IMG/VR virus record: IMGVR_UViG_3300022602_000514
Location: 1 to 20,063 of that record
DNA length: 20,063 bases
Direction: 5' to 3' (one strand)
Origin: a virus
Below are positions 3,389-14,561 of this stretch, piece by piece; within the stretch, counting starts at the first letter, position 1; every line of letters begins with the position of its first letter. The translations under genes were made by a program, and so were the position numbers. The notes under the pieces are model-generated. The model was not told where the DNA came from. It saw only the letters and a list, made by a program, of their open reading frames with translations, and searched no databases.

Positions 3389-5704
3389 ATGCCGTTAGTG
3401 CCAGACCTGATCCCGAACCTTCGTCAAGCTGCGCCGGATGATCCCGATCAGCCAGGTGGCGCTGACATCATCATCGAGATGGCCGAAGAAGGCGCGGATA
3501 TGCCGGAGGTCGATCAGAAGGGCGCGATCCTCAAGATTGAGCATGGCGATGGCTCGGTCACGGTCAGCCTCGACGGTCGCCCTCTGGGCGAAGCCGATCA
3601 GCGTGAGCCCAAGGGCTGGTTTGAGAATCTGGTCGATGACATTGACGAGCTTGAACTGAGCCGGATCTCGTCCGATCTGTTAAAAGGCATCGAAGATGAC
3701 ATCCAAAGCCGACAGGAATGGATCGAAGACCGAACCCAAGGCATCAAGCTCCTCGGCCTCAAAATGGAAGTCCCAGGGCTATCAGGGGCAGCCGACGGAG
3801 CTCCGGTCGAGGGTATGTCACGGATCAGGCATCCGCTACTGCTCGAAGCTGTATTGCGGTTTCAGGCGAATGCGCGATCCGAGCTACTGCCAACTGACGG
3901 GCCGGTAAAGATCCGCGACGACAACAATAACGGGACATTGCAGGAAGATCAGGACGCCAACGCGCTCGAAGAGGATATGAATCATTTCCTAACGGCAGTG
4001 GCTACCGAGTATTATCCCGACACCGACCGGATGCTGCTGATGCTCGGCTTTGGCGGAACAGCGTTCAAGAAGGGCTATTTCTGCCCGCTCCGCAACCGGC
4101 CTGTCATTGAGTCGGTCGATGCTGACGATCTGATCGTCAACAACGAGGCGACGGATTTGAGCAATGCCAAGCGTATCACCCACCGGTCACAGATGCGGCC
4201 AAACGTCGTTAAGCGGTTGCAGATCCTCGGCGTCTATCGCGACATTGAGCTTTCGACACCGAACGCCATCAAATTGGATTCCGTCCAGCTAGAGAAGAAG
4301 TCGCAGCAGGGCATCAGTGCCGAAAGCTCGAACCCCGATGATCGGGATCGTGAAATTTACGAGTGCTATTGCGAACTGGACATCCAGGGCTTTGAGCACA
4401 AATACAAAGGTAAGGAGAGCGGCCTTGAAATTCCTTACCGCGTTACAATCGACGTTTCGTCGAAGCAGATCTTGTCCATCGTTCGCAATTACGATGAGGA
4501 CGATCAGGAGCTTCCCGAAGCCCGTATTAACTTTGTCAAATACACCTTCGTACCGGGGCTGGGCTTTTATGACATTGGTCTCCTGCACATCCTAGGCAAC
4601 ACGACCAACGCGCTGACGGCAGCGTGGCGTGAGATGCTCGATGCCGGTATGTACGCCAATTTCCCCGGCTTTCTGTATGCCGACACCGGCGCTCGCCAAA
4701 ACACCAATATTTTCCGCGTTCCTCCAGGTGGCGGTGCGCTGGTCAAGACCGGCGGTATGCCGATCAATCAAGCCGTCATGCCTTTGCCCTACAAAGACGT
4801 CGGGCCAGGCTTGATGCAGCTCACGGCCAACATGGCCGACACCGGTATGCGGATCGGCGGTACGTCTGAGCAGCAGGTCGGCGAAGGTCGGGCCGACGCT
4901 CCGGTTGGCACGACGCTGGCGATGATCGAACAGGCCACCAAAGTCATGAACTCGGTTCACAAGCGGATGCACGCTGCACAGGCCGAAGAGTTCCAGATGT
5001 TGGCTCGCCTGTTCAAGGAGAACCCACAGAGCTTCTGGCAGCGCAACAAGCGGCCAGCGAAGCCGTGGGATGAACAGACGTTTTTGCGGGCGCTGGACAA
5101 TTGCGAGCTCGTCCCACAGGCGGATCCTAACACGGCCAGCCATGCCCAGCGTGTGATGAAGATCATGGCGCTGAAGCAGCTACAGGCTGCCAATCCGTCG
5201 ATGTATGATCCAATTGCGATTGATACCGCAGCCCTTCAGGCGATTGGTTGGAGCAATCCGCAGCAGTTCTTGGCTCCGCCACAGGCTCAAGCCTCGCCTC
5301 CGCCTGAAATGATGGCCATTCAGGCCAAGATTCAGACAGATCAGACGGCTGCCCAAGCCAAGATGCTCACGGCTCAAGCCCGCATGGCGCAGGTGCAGCA
5401 GGGCGCACAGGGCGCAAAGGGCGGCATTGGCGCGAATCCTCAAGCCGATCAGATCAAGATGGCCGAGATCGCTGTTCACAAGCAGGAGATTGAGCAGCAA
5501 GCGCAGGATTCAATCCTTGATGCCGAAAACCGCAAGCGCGATCGTGAAAGCCGTGAACGGTTGGCGGCGATCAAGCTGGCCGAGCAGATGATGTCGAACC
5601 CGCAAGCCTCGCCAGTTGCCAATCAGCTTCTGGATCCCGGCTTAATTCAACGGCTCGAAGGCAATGAGCCCGCTCTTGATCCCAACGACGTGAAGGCTGG
5701 CTAA
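3389..5704 (+). CDS. Portal protein (P22-type)
   Basis: A 771-residue protein that would form the dodecameric DNA entry and exit ring at one head vertex. Residues 1-90 are acidic and variable. The core starts near residue 95 with SSDLLKGIEDDIQSRQEW, followed by RHPLLLEAVLRFQANARSEL (148-167) and GFGGTAFKKGYF (220-231), and later TNALTAAWREMLDAGMYA, all typical of this portal family. The C-terminal 150 residues are Gln/Ala-rich and predicted helical (AKIQTDQTAAQAKMLTAQAR region), like the extended barrel of P22-type portals. Start ATG 3389 has GAGG eight bases upstream. Its position directly after the large terminase is the standard order. The stop overlaps the next start (TAATG). GATC sites are dense in both ends of the gene (8 in 3401-3700, 7 in 5401-5700). 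Confidence 0.92.
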   Translation: MPLVPDLIPNLRQAAPDDPDQPGGADIIIEMAEEGADMPEVDQKGAILKIEHGDGSVTVSLDGRPLGEADQREPKGWFENLVDDIDELELSRISSDLLKGIEDDIQSRQEWIEDRTQGIKLLGLKMEVPGLSGAADGAPVEGMSRIRHPLLLEAVLRFQANARSELLPTDGPVKIRDDNNNGTLQEDQDANALEEDMNHFLTAVATEYYPDTDRMLLMLGFGGTAFKKGYFCPLRNRPVIESVDADDLIVNNEATDLSNAKRITHRSQMRPNVVKRLQILGVYRDIELSTPNAIKLDSVQLEKKSQQGISAESSNPDDRDREIYECYCELDIQGFEHKYKGKESGLEIPYRVTIDVSSKQILSIVRNYDEDDQELPEARINFVKYTFVPGLGFYDIGLLHILGNTTNALTAAWREMLDAGMYANFPGFLYADTGARQNTNIFRVPPGGGALVKTGGMPINQAVMPLPYKDVGPGLMQLTANMADTGMRIGGTSEQQVGEGRADAPVGTTLAMIEQATKVMNSVHKRMHAAQAEEFQMLARLFKENPQSFWQRNKRPAKPWDEQTFLRALDNCELVPQADPNTASHAQRVMKIMALKQLQAANPSMYDPIAIDTAALQAIGWSNPQQFLAPPQAQASPPPEMMAIQAKIQTDQTAAQAKMLTAQARMAQVQQGAQGAKGGIGANPQADQIKMAEIAVHKQEIEQQAQDSILDAENRKRDRESRERLAAIKLAEQMMSNPQASPVANQLLDPGLIQRLEGNEPALDPNDVKAG

Positions 5705-7257
5705 TGATCGACAAACGGCATCACTTTCTGATGGTAGCACGGCACTTTGCCCGTGGTGGTTATGCGACTGATGGTGCTGTCGATGATGGTGATCAGCAGC
5801 CAATCGGGATGACGCAAGATCAGATTGACGCTGCTGTTTCCAAGCTGCCAGGTGCTACGATCTCGCCCACCCAGCCAACGTGGCGCGATACTGCTGCATC
5901 GGCTCTTCTTGGTGAGCAACCTACTACGCCACAAAGGGATTTTGTGCGCGGTCTGTTAGGATCCGAGGGTGCAGGTAAGTCGTCTTTTGGCTTGTCGGAT
6001 CTTTTGCCGGTTGATCCGATGAGCGCACAGGAAAACTATCAGAAGGGCGATTATCAAAACGCTCTTTTGAATTTGATGCCTATGCGCGGCCCTGCGGCGC
6101 TAGAGGGTGAAACCTCAACTTTGGCTCGGTCGGTTATGCCGCGTCCCGTTATTCCAACATCACCTAATTTATCCGCGCCAGAAAAAACAATTGAAAGTAG
6201 ATTGGCAACTAAAATAGCTGGCGATCCTTATGCATCAATGCACGAATATTCAAAATTAACGGATGAAGCTGGTCAAAATTTGACTGCAAATGGTCGTATT
6301 TTGAACACTGACACGGCGCGAGAGCTTTCTCCTGATTATTCAAAAGACATGGAATCAAAAGCCACACTTTCTCCGGCTGTCCATGAGCCATCGTCTTGGC
6401 TGACAAAATGGATGTACGAGCAAAAACTTGCTCAACCCGTAAAACCAACCGAAGATCCAATGGTGTTGTTTACGGCGGGAGGAGCTGGCGCAGGTAAATC
6501 AACGGCGCTTAGAGATGTTCCTGCAATGGCGGATCTCGAAAAAAATTCTCAAATTATTTACGATACCAACATGAATAATTACGGGAGTTCAAAGAAGAAG
6601 ATTGATCAAGCGCTTGATGCAGGACGCCAAGCCGTTATTGCTTATGTTTATCGCGATCCTGTCGATGCTTTGGTTAATGGTTCTTTGCCTCGCGCTATGC
6701 GTATGGGCCGGACTGTTCCGCTAGAACAGCATCTTGAAACTCATGCGGGATCGGCTGACACAATCCGGCGGTTGGCCGCTGATTATGCAGACAATCCGAA
6801 TGTTGCGTTTCGTGTCATCGATAATTCCCGTGGAAGGGGAAATGCTGCTCTTGGTAGCCTTGAAACTATAGATCCAAGTCGTTATAATAATGGTATGGAT
6901 CGGTTAAGATCCGCACTGGAAAAATCATATGCAGATGGAAAAATATCAGAACCAGTATACCGTGGAACACTTGGTGCAAATGCCGCCGGAGAAAGCTCGG
7001 GAGGCTCTATTGTCTCTACCGGATACAGATCGGGCGGCACTGTTAAGGGCAATGCCTCTAAATCACAAGGCGGATATCCTAATGTCCGGCCTAGTCGGCA
7101 AGCTAAGACACCACACAAAGTAATTGCTTCTAAGCATTTATCTGCTGCCACAGGGCGTGATCTGATTGATCGCGCCCTTTCTGTTGTTCCGAAATACGGC
7201 TCGCCGCTGCACGATGCCGTAACTATCGCCCAGCAGCAAACACGGGGACGCCCGTAA
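5704..7257 (+). CDS. Phage protein with internal zeta-toxin-like P-loop kinase domain
   Basis: A 517-residue protein coupled to portal by TAATG, with AAGG upstream. Residues 1-130 are a phage-type leader (RHFARGGYATDG near 13-24, and a GDYQNALLNL segment). Residues about 155-420 look like a zeta/PezT-family kinase: Walker A GGAGAGKST (259-267), Asp287 in QIIYDTNM as candidate catalytic base, RDP at 317-319, Arg330/Arg336 in RAMRMGRTVP and a strand ending VIDN (371-374). Zeta enzymes phosphorylate UDP-N-acetyl sugars or related substrates and can be toxic; what this one phosphorylates is unknown. The tail (430-517) has YRSGGTV and ATGRDLIDRAL. The kinase region is AT-rich (35% GC at 6181-6240) between GC-rich flanks. 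No antitoxin-like gene is adjacent. It may be a polyvalent protein injected with the DNA or a maturation enzyme. The family call is from motif recognition only. Confidence 0.7.
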   Translation: MIDKRHHFLMVARHFARGGYATDGAVDDGDQQPIGMTQDQIDAAVSKLPGATISPTQPTWRDTAASALLGEQPTTPQRDFVRGLLGSEGAGKSSFGLSDLLPVDPMSAQENYQKGDYQNALLNLMPMRGPAALEGETSTLARSVMPRPVIPTSPNLSAPEKTIESRLATKIAGDPYASMHEYSKLTDEAGQNLTANGRILNTDTARELSPDYSKDMESKATLSPAVHEPSSWLTKWMYEQKLAQPVKPTEDPMVLFTAGGAGAGKSTALRDVPAMADLEKNSQIIYDTNMNNYGSSKKKIDQALDAGRQAVIAYVYRDPVDALVNGSLPRAMRMGRTVPLEQHLETHAGSADTIRRLAADYADNPNVAFRVIDNSRGRGNAALGSLETIDPSRYNNGMDRLRSALEKSYADGKISEPVYRGTLGANAAGESSGGSIVSTGYRSGGTVKGNASKSQGGYPNVRPSRQAKTPHKVIASKHLSAATGRDLIDRALSVVPKYGSPLHDAVTIAQQQTRGRP

Positions 7258-7282: not shown

Positions 7283-9199
7283 ATGTCGATTATGTCCAAA
7301 AATGCCCGCTCGGCGCTTAAAAGCAAGGCTCAACGCCTTGTAGGCCCAGATCCACGGGGTACGCCTATTGATGCTTCCGGCTATACGCCACCGGATGCAG
7401 AAGACGCTTCCGTCCAGACCGGTATGCGTCCTCTTTCCAAGCGCCAGTTCAAGAAGGGCGGCAAGGTAATCGGCAAGTACGAAGGCAAAGACGGCCATCA
7501 CCATGCCGGTCGCAAGCCTCGCAAGTCCGGCGGTCGTGCAAATCGCTTTCTGACGCCTGACAATTTGATCAATCGCGATGTGAAAATGGCGAATGATGAG
7601 CGCGTCGGCACGAAGCACGTCGGAGGCATGAAGCGCGGCGGCAAGGCTGAACACAAGCTGGGCGGCGGCATGGTTGGCAACAATCCGGTGGCTCAATCAT
7701 TGTCGAACATTGCCAACGCTGCGATTCCTCCAAGCGCAATGGGCCGCAAAGACGGTGGCAAAGCCAAGTGGATCCAAGGCGCGATCAAGCATGAAGGCTC
7801 GCTGCATAAGGCTCTTCACGTTCCTGCCGGTGAAAAGATCCCTGCCAAGAAGATCTCGAAGGCCGAGCACAGCAAGAATCCTAAGCTGGCCAAGAAAGCG
7901 CACCTGGCTGAAACGCTGAAGCATATGCACCACGCCAAGGGCGGCAAGGCCATGTCCGAGTTCGAATGGAAACATTCGAAGGAAGATGAGCGAGAAGATC
8001 GTATCCTCGCCAAGAAGCATCACATGACGCCGATGCAGTGGGAAAAGTCGAAGCTCAACGAAAAGCACGACAAGCAACAGTCCATGAAGGGCTTGAAGCA
8101 TGGCGGCGAAGTGCATCACACGTCGTGCCGTTGCGAGAAATGCTCCGGCGGTCGCATGGGGCGCAAGCATGGCGGCAAAGCCGAGCACAACATCATGGAA
8201 GTGACGGGCGTTCGTCCTACCGGCGGTCGCAAAGCTCGCGAACATGGTGGCCATACTATGTCCGATGATAGTACGCCACCAAGCGCCTCGTATAACTTTC
8301 TGACCGGCTGGAGCGGCCTTGATAAGGCAACTCCCGATCAGATTGCTGCAATGAATCCACAAGATCGGCAAATGGCTTTGGCAGCCCAGGGGCCAAGCCG
8401 TGCGGTTGCTCCTGCTCATGTTGCTCGTCGCTCTGCTCCTTCTGCTTCTACTGGCCCAGCTCCAGGCTCGACCAGTGGCGGAATGATGGATCCAGCTCAA
8501 CGTGCTGCAATGCTCCAACAGGCGCAGCAGGTTGATCAGCGGGCGATGAGAGCTGACAACGCTCAAGTTTATTCCGATGCTCAAAACCAAGCCAATGCTT
8601 TGCAGCAAGCTGCTGTTCCTGCTTCGCTACGCCCTGATCAGCAGCAGAACATGATGGGCCGTGGGTTGCCTCCATCGCGTACCGATTACGGCCTGTTCCA
8701 GGGCCAAGCCGGTGAGCCCGCAATGGTATTTAGCCGTCAGGTTCCTGATGCCAACGTGGCTCCTGCGTATCACGACAGTTCTGATAACTCGGCTCCGATT
8801 CCGATTGGGGATCTTGGCGAAATGCGCGGCGGTCGTATTGGCCGCAAAGACGGGGGCCGTACCAAGGGCAAAGGCACGAACGTCAATATCGTGATTGCTC
8901 CTCACCATCCTGGCATGGGCCAAGCTCCTGCCGGTATGATGGGCCAGCCTCCTGCTGGTGGCGCACGTTCTGTTCCGGTTCCTCCGCCACAGGGTATGCC
9001 TCCGCAGGGTATGCCTATGGGTATGCCACAGGGTATGCCAGGCGGTATGCCTCCGCAGGGTATGCCTCCTCAGATGGGCGGCATGGCTATGGCTCGCAAG
9101 TCTGGCGGTCGCGCCAACTACCCGATTGATACGGGTGCTGGTGGCGCGAATGCCCGCCTTGAAAAGATCAAAGCGTATGGTTTGAAGCCAGCGCGATAA
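7283..9199 (+). CDS. Gly-Gly basic repeat protein with Cys cluster and Pro/Gln/Met tail
   Basis: A 638-residue protein of unknown function; I recall similar proteins in environmental phages near portal genes. Start ATG 7283 follows CAGGAG. The first 330 residues are very basic and carry about a dozen copies of a motif of the type basic-x-GG-Lys/Arg-Ala (KKGGKV 58, KSGGRA 81, KRGGKA 117, KDGGKA 156, KHGGKA 295). Two WxxSKxDExxD units lie at about 225-264, and a Cys cluster CRCEKC (282-287) could bind a metal. Residues 330-500 are Ala/Gln-rich and probably helical. Then come KDGGRT, an NVNIVI strand (533-538), a Met-Pro-Gln-Gly tract (565-600) and a last KSGGRA before a conserved end (ARLEKIKAYG). 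No transmembrane or signal segment is seen. A terminator follows. Roles to consider are DNA condensation or an ejected internal protein; neither is shown. Confidence 0.75.
   Translation: MSIMSKNARSALKSKAQRLVGPDPRGTPIDASGYTPPDAEDASVQTGMRPLSKRQFKKGGKVIGKYEGKDGHHHAGRKPRKSGGRANRFLTPDNLINRDVKMANDERVGTKHVGGMKRGGKAEHKLGGGMVGNNPVAQSLSNIANAAIPPSAMGRKDGGKAKWIQGAIKHEGSLHKALHVPAGEKIPAKKISKAEHSKNPKLAKKAHLAETLKHMHHAKGGKAMSEFEWKHSKEDEREDRILAKKHHMTPMQWEKSKLNEKHDKQQSMKGLKHGGEVHHTSCRCEKCSGGRMGRKHGGKAEHNIMEVTGVRPTGGRKAREHGGHTMSDDSTPPSASYNFLTGWSGLDKATPDQIAAMNPQDRQMALAAQGPSRAVAPAHVARRSAPSASTGPAPGSTSGGMMDPAQRAAMLQQAQQVDQRAMRADNAQVYSDAQNQANALQQAAVPASLRPDQQQNMMGRGLPPSRTDYGLFQGQAGEPAMVFSRQVPDANVAPAYHDSSDNSAPIPIGDLGEMRGGRIGRKDGGRTKGKGTNVNIVIAPHHPGMGQAPAGMMGQPPAGGARSVPVPPPQGMPPQGMPMGMPQGMPGGMPPQGMPPQMGGMAMARKSGGRANYPIDTGAGGANARLEKIKAYGLKPAR
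8981..9082 (+). repeat. Imperfect tandem repeat encoding Pro-Pro-Gln-Gly-Met units
   Basis: The unit CCTCCGCAGGGTATG and its 9- to 12-base variants recur across this stretch inside the 638-residue protein. They encode a low-complexity Gly-Met-Pro-(Pro)-Gln tract (residues about 567-598). The reading frame is kept throughout. The repeat number could vary by slippage between relatives. Confidence 0.8.
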
Positions 9200-9304: not shown

Positions 9305-9505
9305 ATGCTTACAACTAACGATCTGTTCGAAAGAGAACTCAAGAAACTTCTGAAAGCGGAAATTGAGAGACTGTCCGAGATTCTTGCCGGTAACGGCATC
9401 TCTGATTTTTCTCAATACAAGTATTACGTCGGCGCTATTCACGGTCTCAGCCATGCTCTTGAGCAGTGCGAAGAGGCCAATTCTATCGTCGAACAAACAC
9501 GCTAA
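9305..9505 (+). CDS. Small conserved phage protein of unknown function
   Basis: A 66-residue protein, mostly alpha-helical by composition, with a charged N-terminal helix (FERELKKLLKAEIERLSEIL) and a second segment around YKYYVGAIHGLSHALEQCEE. I recall similar short proteins beside co-chaperonin or head genes in podoviruses but know no function. Start ATG 9305 has a GAGGG site just upstream, in a purine-rich leader following the terminator at 9239. Its stop codon at 9503-9505 sits inside the strong ribosome site of the next gene, so the two are probably co-translated. Confidence 0.7.
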   Translation: MLTTNDLFERELKKLLKAEIERLSEILAGNGISDFSQYKYYVGAIHGLSHALEQCEEANSIVEQTR

Positions 9506-9516
9506 AGGAGGTTTTT

Positions 9517-9924
9517 ATGGGTTACATGATGCAACACACGACTGATCCTCGTGAAGATATTTTGAAGGCTATGGGCGATCTGTCCGACTTCGAAGTGTTC
9601 CACAACAAAGTGCTTATTGCTGTCTATATTCGGCCTGAAAAGACGTCGGGCGGAATCATTATCACCAATAAGACACGCGATGAAGACAAGTGGCAGGGCA
9701 AGGTTGGCCTCGTTGTTAAAATGGGGCCGTCCGCATTTGTCGATGAAGATGGCAAATGGTTCAAGGGTATGAAGATCAAGACGCACGATTGGCTCGTTGC
9801 CCGTCCATCTGACGGTTGGAGCCTGACATACAACAATCGCGAAACCGGCGAAGATGTTTTGTGTCGCCTTATGGATGATTTTGTCTTCCAAGGCCGCGTA
9901 TCTCACCCTGATTCCGTAATTTAA
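9517..9924 (+). CDS. GroES-like co-chaperonin (Cpn10 family)
   Basis: A 135-residue protein. Residues 28-70 match the GroES core: HNKVLIAVYIRPE, a mobile-loop-like stretch TSGGIIITNKTRDED, then WQGKVGLVVKMGP. In GroES the loop tripeptide IVL after the two glycines docks on GroEL; here it is III, which keeps the hydrophobic character. The later segment HDWLVARPSDGW and the end LCRLMDDFVF also fit the fold. By analogy with T4 gp31 it may act with host GroEL to fold the capsid protein encoded 2.7 kb downstream; that partner is an inference. Start ATG 9517 is chosen because a perfect AAAGGAGG (9504-9511) sits five bases upstream. An in-frame ATG at 9466 lies inside the previous gene and lacks such a site. 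The protein is longer than GroES (97 residues), with about 27 extra N-terminal residues. Confidence 0.82.
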   Translation: MGYMMQHTTDPREDILKAMGDLSDFEVFHNKVLIAVYIRPEKTSGGIIITNKTRDEDKWQGKVGLVVKMGPSAFVDEDGKWFKGMKIKTHDWLVARPSDGWSLTYNNRETGEDVLCRLMDDFVFQGRVSHPDSVI

Positions 9925-14124: not shown

Positions 14125-14135
14125 GGAGATTGACC

Positions 14136-14561
14136 ATGAAGGGTCATAAGGCACATCACCACGCACATGGCGGCAAGGCTCATCACGCTCACGGCGGTAT
14201 GGCTCACCATGCAAAGCATCGCAAAGCCGGTGGCAAGGCGGAATCGCCTGAACACGGTGTAGACGAGGCTGAAATGGACTTGCGCGACAAGCCTATGGAA
14301 TACAACCACGGCTACCCAGAGCATGAAGCCGAGGCTACCAGCGAGCGCAAGCACGGTGGTCGCGCAAAGCGCAAGCATGGCGGCCATGTCCATAAGCACG
14401 TCGAAATGCACGGCGAACACGCTCACCACCATGCTGGCCGCAAGCCACGCAAGTCTGGTGGCCGCGCTGGCGCAGAGTCGCATCCTTTCACTTCGGCTCA
14501 TGCTGGCACGCCAGCCAAGGGTCGCAAGATCGAAAAGATGACGATGGGTTCTGACGTCTAA
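14136..14561 (+). CDS. His-rich Gly-Gly basic repeat protein
   Basis: A 141-residue protein with 26 histidines (18%) and six copies of a motif of the type x-GG-Lys/Arg-Ala (AHGGKA, AHGGMA, KAGGKA, KHGGRA, KHGGHV, KSGGRA). An acidic middle (EHGVDEAEMDLRD) separates two basic blocks. Residues 97-111 are identical to residues 72-86 of the large repeat protein encoded at 7283. Start ATG 14136 has AAGGAG seven bases upstream; a TTG at 14130 would add two residues but sits too close to that site. Function unknown. His density suggests metal binding or pH-sensitive charge, and the basic charge suggests DNA or polyanion contact. It ends the capsid transcription unit before a terminator. Confidence 0.7.
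   Translation: MKGHKAHHHAHGGKAHHAHGGMAHHAKHRKAGGKAESPEHGVDEAEMDLRDKPMEYNHGYPEHEAEATSERKHGGRAKRKHGGHVHKHVEMHGEHAHHHAGRKPRKSGGRAGAESHPFTSAHAGTPAKGRKIEKMTMGSDV

Follow-up and report, generated by a model that had tools for sequence, protein, structure and literature searches.

A predicted zeta-superfamily kinase occupies a putative exchangeable effector slot beside the portal gene of a freshwater phage

The gonococcal toxin ng_zeta1 (Neisseria gonorrhoeae; PDB 6EPG/6EPH/6EPI; Rocker et al. 2018, PMC5923241) is a kinase that carries two of its sequence blocks in the reverse order from other zeta toxins, with Asp56, upstream of the P-loop, as the likely base and with Arg175 and Arg181 forming a positive patch (PMC5923241). 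Zeta-like kinases are also found among phage polyvalent proteins, whose known injected repertoire includes peptidoglycan hydrolases and ADP-ribosyltransferases (ARTs), and their fusion to MuF has already been noted, with wall weakening as the proposed effect (Iyer et al. 2017, PMC5512222). MuF polymorphic toxins (Jamet et al. 2017, PMC5576092; Apk2, PMC12226406) join constant and variable toxin parts, and one study found toxin-bearing MuF proteins only in temperate phages (PMC5576092). Here we analyze the viral record IMGVR_UViG_3300022602_000514, a stretch of 20,063 bases (the window) that carries the head-assembly operon of a freshwater phage, and in it a gene of 517 codons next to the portal gene (5704..7257; the features of this gene and both of its neighbors lie on the + strand). 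We refer to it as the slot gene, and found no earlier description of such a slot in the literature searched.

Relatives, which we collected via the kinase, the portal and the constant ends, retain the same neighbors and both constant ends while the center of the gene varies. The N-terminal end (residues 1-29, RHHFLMVARHFARGGYATDGAV; 5704..5790) is common to empty, kinase, alarmone-synthetase and ART alleles, and its sequence is kept across relatives over about 29 residues as RHHFLMVAKHFARxGYATDGAV. The C-terminal end (residues 465-517, ...LIDRALSVVPKYGSPLHDAVTIAQQQTRGRP; 7096..7254) is likewise shared among alleles, with about 45 residues kept as IDRALSVVPxSGSPLHEAVTxAQQHTRGRP. Behind the N-terminal end lies an adaptor block (residues 30-130; 5791..6093) that is common to the kinase and both alarmone-synthetase alleles and absent from the empty and ART-only alleles, followed by an ng_zeta1-type kinase domain (residues 152-429; 6157..6990) supported by profile, AlphaFold2 and Foldseek. 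A kinase module at 6120-7150 had been claimed in an earlier reading of the letters alone, hereafter the original prediction; the kinase is present, with its limits now at about residues 152 and 429.

At the same position, L003 holds the same kinase, while L004 combines an ART-PolyVal domain with a zeta kinase (35.4 and 45 bits, each over its Pfam cut-off), giving two disparate enzymatic domains in one protein. L011-L014 carry a different ART-PolyVal domain (86.9 bits), and L008, L009 and L039 an alarmone-synthetase-like domain whose profile matches Tas1 (6ox6) at 8.7e-17. A second alarmone-synthetase-like domain, found in L005-L007, is remote by sequence (Pfam RelA_SpoT E 0.16; chance matches only when the L007 cargo was searched by sequence against the PDB), and the predicted fold of the L007 cargo (AlphaFold, pLDDT 80.8) gave 47 Foldseek PDB matches at E <=0.001, every one a member of the RelA/SpoT and small alarmone synthetase superfamily. 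In L010 and L038 the allele is empty, consisting of the ends only (85 aa). The L007-type cargo recurs in other viral contigs (L186-L191), inside very large proteins (1185-2224 aa) that are probably polyvalent. In L017 and L018 the slot gene lacks the N-terminal constant end and begins within the adaptor block; its middle is repetitive (DAALSRTGPFTGG repeats), and no enzyme domain was recognized there.

The contigs are metagenomic. In L010 the blocks homologous to the window abut at 5194/5195, and the window holds 432 extra codons there (5801..7097), the cargo segment missing from the empty allele. The filled L009 and the empty L010 are 98.9% identical in the flanks compared (about 1.1 kb before the slot and 0.7 kb after it), and L004 and L011 have flanks of about 95.8% identity around different cargo. 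The window and L004 share 86.6% nucleotide identity in the kinase region versus 80% in the flanks; because the kinase is more alike than the backbone, the cassette has probably moved between backbones. By these sequence comparisons, the gene is one allele of an exchangeable cargo (putative effector) slot, with fixed ends and neighbors and a variable center. The suggestion that a foreign module had been set into a virion-cluster gene is strongly supported by L010, which has the gene without the module, and by the relatives that hold different modules there.

The AT-rich patch described by the original prediction was reproduced: GC is 35.0% at 6181-6240 versus 63.3% at 7501-7560. Over the kinase segment (6157-6990), GC is 44.8% and GC at third codon positions (GC3) 31%, compared with 57% and 68% for the portal gene; the segment is the lowest-GC stretch of its length between 1500 and 20063, a range that leaves out the left end of the window; only 1 of 591 same-length windows is equally low, and it overlaps the segment itself. 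Cargo is AT-rich in all alleles examined (37-45% GC).

With Pfam Zeta_toxin (PF06414; cut-off 22.3 bits) the slot protein scores 49.2 bits at E 5.7e-13, the match being split between profile columns 10-37 and 93-177; columns 38-92, home of the zeta/PezT catalytic Asp, are unmatched. A sequence search of the PDB returned ng_zeta1 as the only relative (E 1e-5), and a 29-sequence profile reached its 6eph entry at E 4.6e-23. An AlphaFold2 model of residues 143-442 (pLDDT 89.6, pTM 0.86) again placed ng_zeta1 chains first in Foldseek (6epg, E 8e-14, TM 0.72 by query), with AvrRxo1 (9e-4) and zeta/PezT (about 2e-3) far behind. Identity to ng_zeta1 is about 19% in the structural alignment; fold, swapped block order and key residues are shared. 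Asp203 (6310..6312) is the counterpart of the catalytic Asp56 of ng_zeta1 and Asp67 of S. pyogenes zeta; Lys265, in the Walker A motif GGAGAGKST (residues 259-267; 6478..6504), aligns with Lys115; and Arg330 and Arg336 (6691..6711) align with Arg175 and Arg181 of the active-site positive patch (PMC5923241). Sequence and model together assign the domain to the zeta-superfamily kinases of the block-swapped ng_zeta1 subclass, with the catalytic Asp before the P-loop.

The original prediction had read a zeta/PezT pattern from GGAGAGKST, Asp287 in IIYDTNM and RAMRMGRTVP at residues 330-339. These motifs lie exactly where it put them, and profile, PDB and fold searches bear out a P-loop kinase core with zeta-profile similarity above cut-off. 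Membership of the zeta superfamily stands, but three findings reject a canonical zeta/PezT enzyme with Asp287 as base: the gap in the Pfam match, the alignment to 6epg and the conservation pattern. Asp287 (6562..6564) occupies a D/E position downstream of the P-loop (38 D and 5 E of 43); the counterpart of the catalytic Asp is Asp203. PHROGs returned nothing for the slot protein beyond a spurious P-loop match, and PADLOC and NCBIfam searches gave nothing informative.

Conservation was assessed in 44 non-redundant kinase homologs from viral, plasmid and genome contigs, one row of which (L125) is apparently a canonical zeta toxin that aligns poorly. Asp203 is conserved in 44/44, Lys265 in 43/43, and Arg330 and Arg336 in 43/44 each. 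Asp203 lies 62 residues upstream of Lys265, an order kept by all 43 homologs with an aligned P-loop. Lys59, which in ng_zeta1 contacts UDP-N-acetylmuramic acid (UDP-MurNAc), corresponds to Arg206 (K or R in 44/44), while the UDP-MurNAc (UNAM) contact Asn75 is replaced by Ser223, a position with Ala, Ser or Val in most homologs. One scan of genome contigs gave only two bacterial relatives, a Thiobacillus metagenome-assembled genome and Solimonas. Mobilizable plasmids of Sphingobium and Novosphingobium (L122, L123) carry free-standing 358-aa ng_zeta1-like kinases beside a DNA adenine methylase gene, with no antitoxin annotated. The predicted fold of a cedratvirus protein (BFVD A0A2R8FDL0) is nearly that of the window kinase (TM 0.73/0.78), which suggests, at the level of models, that a giant virus carries a block-swapped zeta kinase.

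Elsewhere, the same kinase family is joined to virion proteins. Of 43 viral homologs, 23 have the kinase fused to the C-terminal end of a Phage_portal_3 protein, many of them on freshwater phage contigs (e.g., L162:348-3110, L148-L172), and 9 have it fused to MuF. Two proteins combine it with ddrB-ParB: L127, in which both zeta and ddrB-ParB are above cut-off and ART-PolyVal scores 27.1 bits, under its 31.2 cut-off, and L174.

We next set this locus against the systems described above. Unlike ng_zeta1, the slot kinase shows no C-terminal oligonucleotide/oligosaccharide-binding (OB) domain, has no epsilon antitoxin and is embedded in a phage protein. With polyvalent proteins (PMC5512222) the slot gene shares its late virion-gene context, lying between the portal and the GroES/capsid block, and the two families have ART-PolyVal, LPD23, RelA/SpoT, lysozyme, PcfJ and zeta-like kinase domains in common. 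The slot differs in being one fixed locus with short constant ends, exchangeable centers and a natural empty allele, and the window allele has a single enzymatic domain by Pfam, whereas polyvalent proteins carry two or more disparate ones. Like MuF polymorphic toxins, the slot gene combines a constant region with a variable toxin (RelA-like and ART types occur in both) and sits in the head module beside the portal. However, Pfam and PHROGs searches found no MuF domain, the cargo is central and not C-terminal, no small immunity open reading frame (ORF) follows, with just 25 nt before the next conserved gene, and no integrase was found in related records. Tas1, a (p)ppApp synthetase (PDB 6OX6), resembles the L009 sister allele and not the window; there the domain is phage-slot cargo instead of an effector of the type VI secretion system. 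For the ART alleles, T4 Alt, a head-packaged ADP-ribosyltransferase delivered with DNA, serves as a functional analogy, and its family is distinct from ART-PolyVal (PMC5512222).

The operon runs in the order ParB/methylase fusion, terminase large subunit, SU10-type portal, slot gene, Gly-Gly/basic-motif-rich protein, GroES-like gene, and capsid and tail genes. The portal (3389..5704; Pfam SU10_portal, 66 bits; PHROG 1216 portal, 8.5e-24) shares one base of its stop codon with the slot-gene start (TAATG). Its named relatives include pelagiphages HTVC023P and HTVC027P, Roseobacter phages CRP-901 and CRP-902, Caulobacter phage RW, and the 61-kb MW202675; in the last, a peptidase M15 and other genes occupy the same interval. 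On the right, the motif-rich protein (7283..9199), identified from the ORF list and relatives, is the conserved neighbor of the slot throughout the whole family and had no match in the Pfam search; it and the protein at 14130-14561 both carry repeated Gly-Gly/basic motifs, of which HHAGRKPRKSGGRA is identical in both. The GroES-like co-chaperonin gene (9466-9924) has a counterpart in many relatives. The ParB-like/DNA methylase fusion (3-1304) is also AT-rich (45.7% GC, GC3 34%) and is possibly another acquired module.

Across the wider family, the space between both neighbors ranges from about 0.1 to 7.0 kb (57 loci with both visible, some of them near-duplicates). In 62 slot-region proteins, a survey that takes in genes not homologous to the slot gene of the window, Pfam found ART-PolyVal 11 times, LPD23 three times, cell-wall Hydrolase_2 three times and Phage_lysozyme2 twice, along with single matches to SLT, Amidase_2, PcfJ and others. 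Slot-region genes of distant relatives (e.g., L049, L052, L073, L080) share short terminal tags that recur whatever the center, GGSIVDRALMLTSKK..RRGRP or KDAALHKALEIIHHLLTR, and these tags are candidate virion-loading signals. A regular expression for these C-terminal ends matched 32 of 87 slot proteins and 2 of 632 other ORFs; because the pattern was drawn up from sequences already inspected, the counts are descriptive.

Together, these findings are best explained, in our view probably, by a virion-delivered effector that phosphorylates peptidoglycan precursors, encoded as one allele of the cargo slot without an adjacent antitoxin; we infer its packaging, ejection, substrate and timing. Particle delivery is the best reading because of the portal and MuF fusions of the kinase and the polyvalent-type domains in sister slot proteins. 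The constant ends and adaptor would probably allow the slot protein to be incorporated into the particle close to the portal, with the N-terminal end as a candidate for virion targeting. The center would act as the exchangeable effector, which in this phage belongs to the ng_zeta1 subclass of kinases. The kinase would probably bind ATP at the P-loop through Lys265, while Asp203 would activate a sugar hydroxyl, and its substrates would probably be UDP-activated amino sugars, such as UDP-N-acetylglucosamine (UDP-GlcNAc) or UDP-MurNAc; the activity that defines the ng_zeta1 subclass is phosphorylation of UDP-sugars at the C4'-OH. Peptidoglycan synthesis in the infected cell would then stop early in infection. 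Since phage and toxin do not persist together in a dividing host, no antitoxin would be required.

Several points weigh against this account. Identity between the portal-fused homologs and the window kinase is only about 28%, the constant ends are without known structure or function, and the replacement of Asn75 by Ser223 may mean that the sugar substrate differs and is perhaps not UDP-MurNAc. The original prediction had already raised polyvalent-type delivery, which the ART-PolyVal and alarmone-synthetase alleles and the fusions elsewhere support; packaging in the particle is itself inferred.

The strongest alternative, though unlikely, keeps the slot and the fold and has the kinase target a different small molecule (another nucleotide sugar, NAD+ or a defense signal nucleotide) in counter-defense or metabolic take-over. 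It draws on the partial loss of the residues behind the UDP-MurNAc preference of ng_zeta1 (Asn75 and Lys59), on AvrRxo1 as the next fold match and on sister alleles with NAD+ (ART) or nucleotides (alarmone synthetases) as their substrates, but among solved structures a UDP-sugar kinase is by far the nearest, and its active-site Arg pair and Asp are retained. It is improbable that the protein is not packaged but made late, blocking peptidoglycan synthesis in the producing cell and aiding lysis as amurins do. Inhibition of wall-precursor synthesis is a known lysis route and the slot gene sits in a late structural operon; however, the other alleles do not encode lysis functions but ADP-ribosyltransferases, alarmone synthetases or nothing, and the portal and MuF fusions point to the particle. 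That the segment is a decaying, inactive foreign insert would fit its AT-richness and its absence from some relatives, yet is very improbable, since the ORF and all four catalytic residues are intact in the window, L003 and L004 and the residues are conserved out to homologs about 28% identical. Least probable by our estimate is a toxin-antitoxin or addiction module, as formed by ng_zeta1 and zeta/PezT toxins: an ORF check found no antitoxin-like ORF between the portal and the next gene, in agreement with the original prediction, no integrase exceeded its cut-off in 14 records (mostly related phages of 23-61 kb, not all complete), and the kinase domain lies inside a fusion protein whose ends are conserved.

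Beyond the virion-delivered effector itself, the absence of an integrase above cut-off in those 14 records makes a lytic lifestyle of the slot phages likely. We tentatively propose, at slightly less than even confidence, a probably obligately lytic family of tailed phages with an interchangeable effector cartridge, in which the ends would serve as virion-loading signals at the portal, in-frame recombination would swap toxins between near-identical phages, and the particle would deliver one or another metabolic toxin without immunity genes. Held just as tentatively, the contents of this cartridge would be a block-swapped zeta kinase, ADP-ribosyltransferases, (p)ppApp-type synthetases, or nothing.

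The slot is a variant of the already known polyvalent and MuF-type phage effectors, and its near-identical phages with empty and filled slots offer a natural experiment for the polyvalent-protein idea. Kinases with the swapped order of ng_zeta1 now reach beyond a gonococcal toxin-antitoxin pair, into phage portal operons and portal fusions. As for the constant ends, stretches of about 30 and 45 residues may suffice to load a protein into the phage particle.
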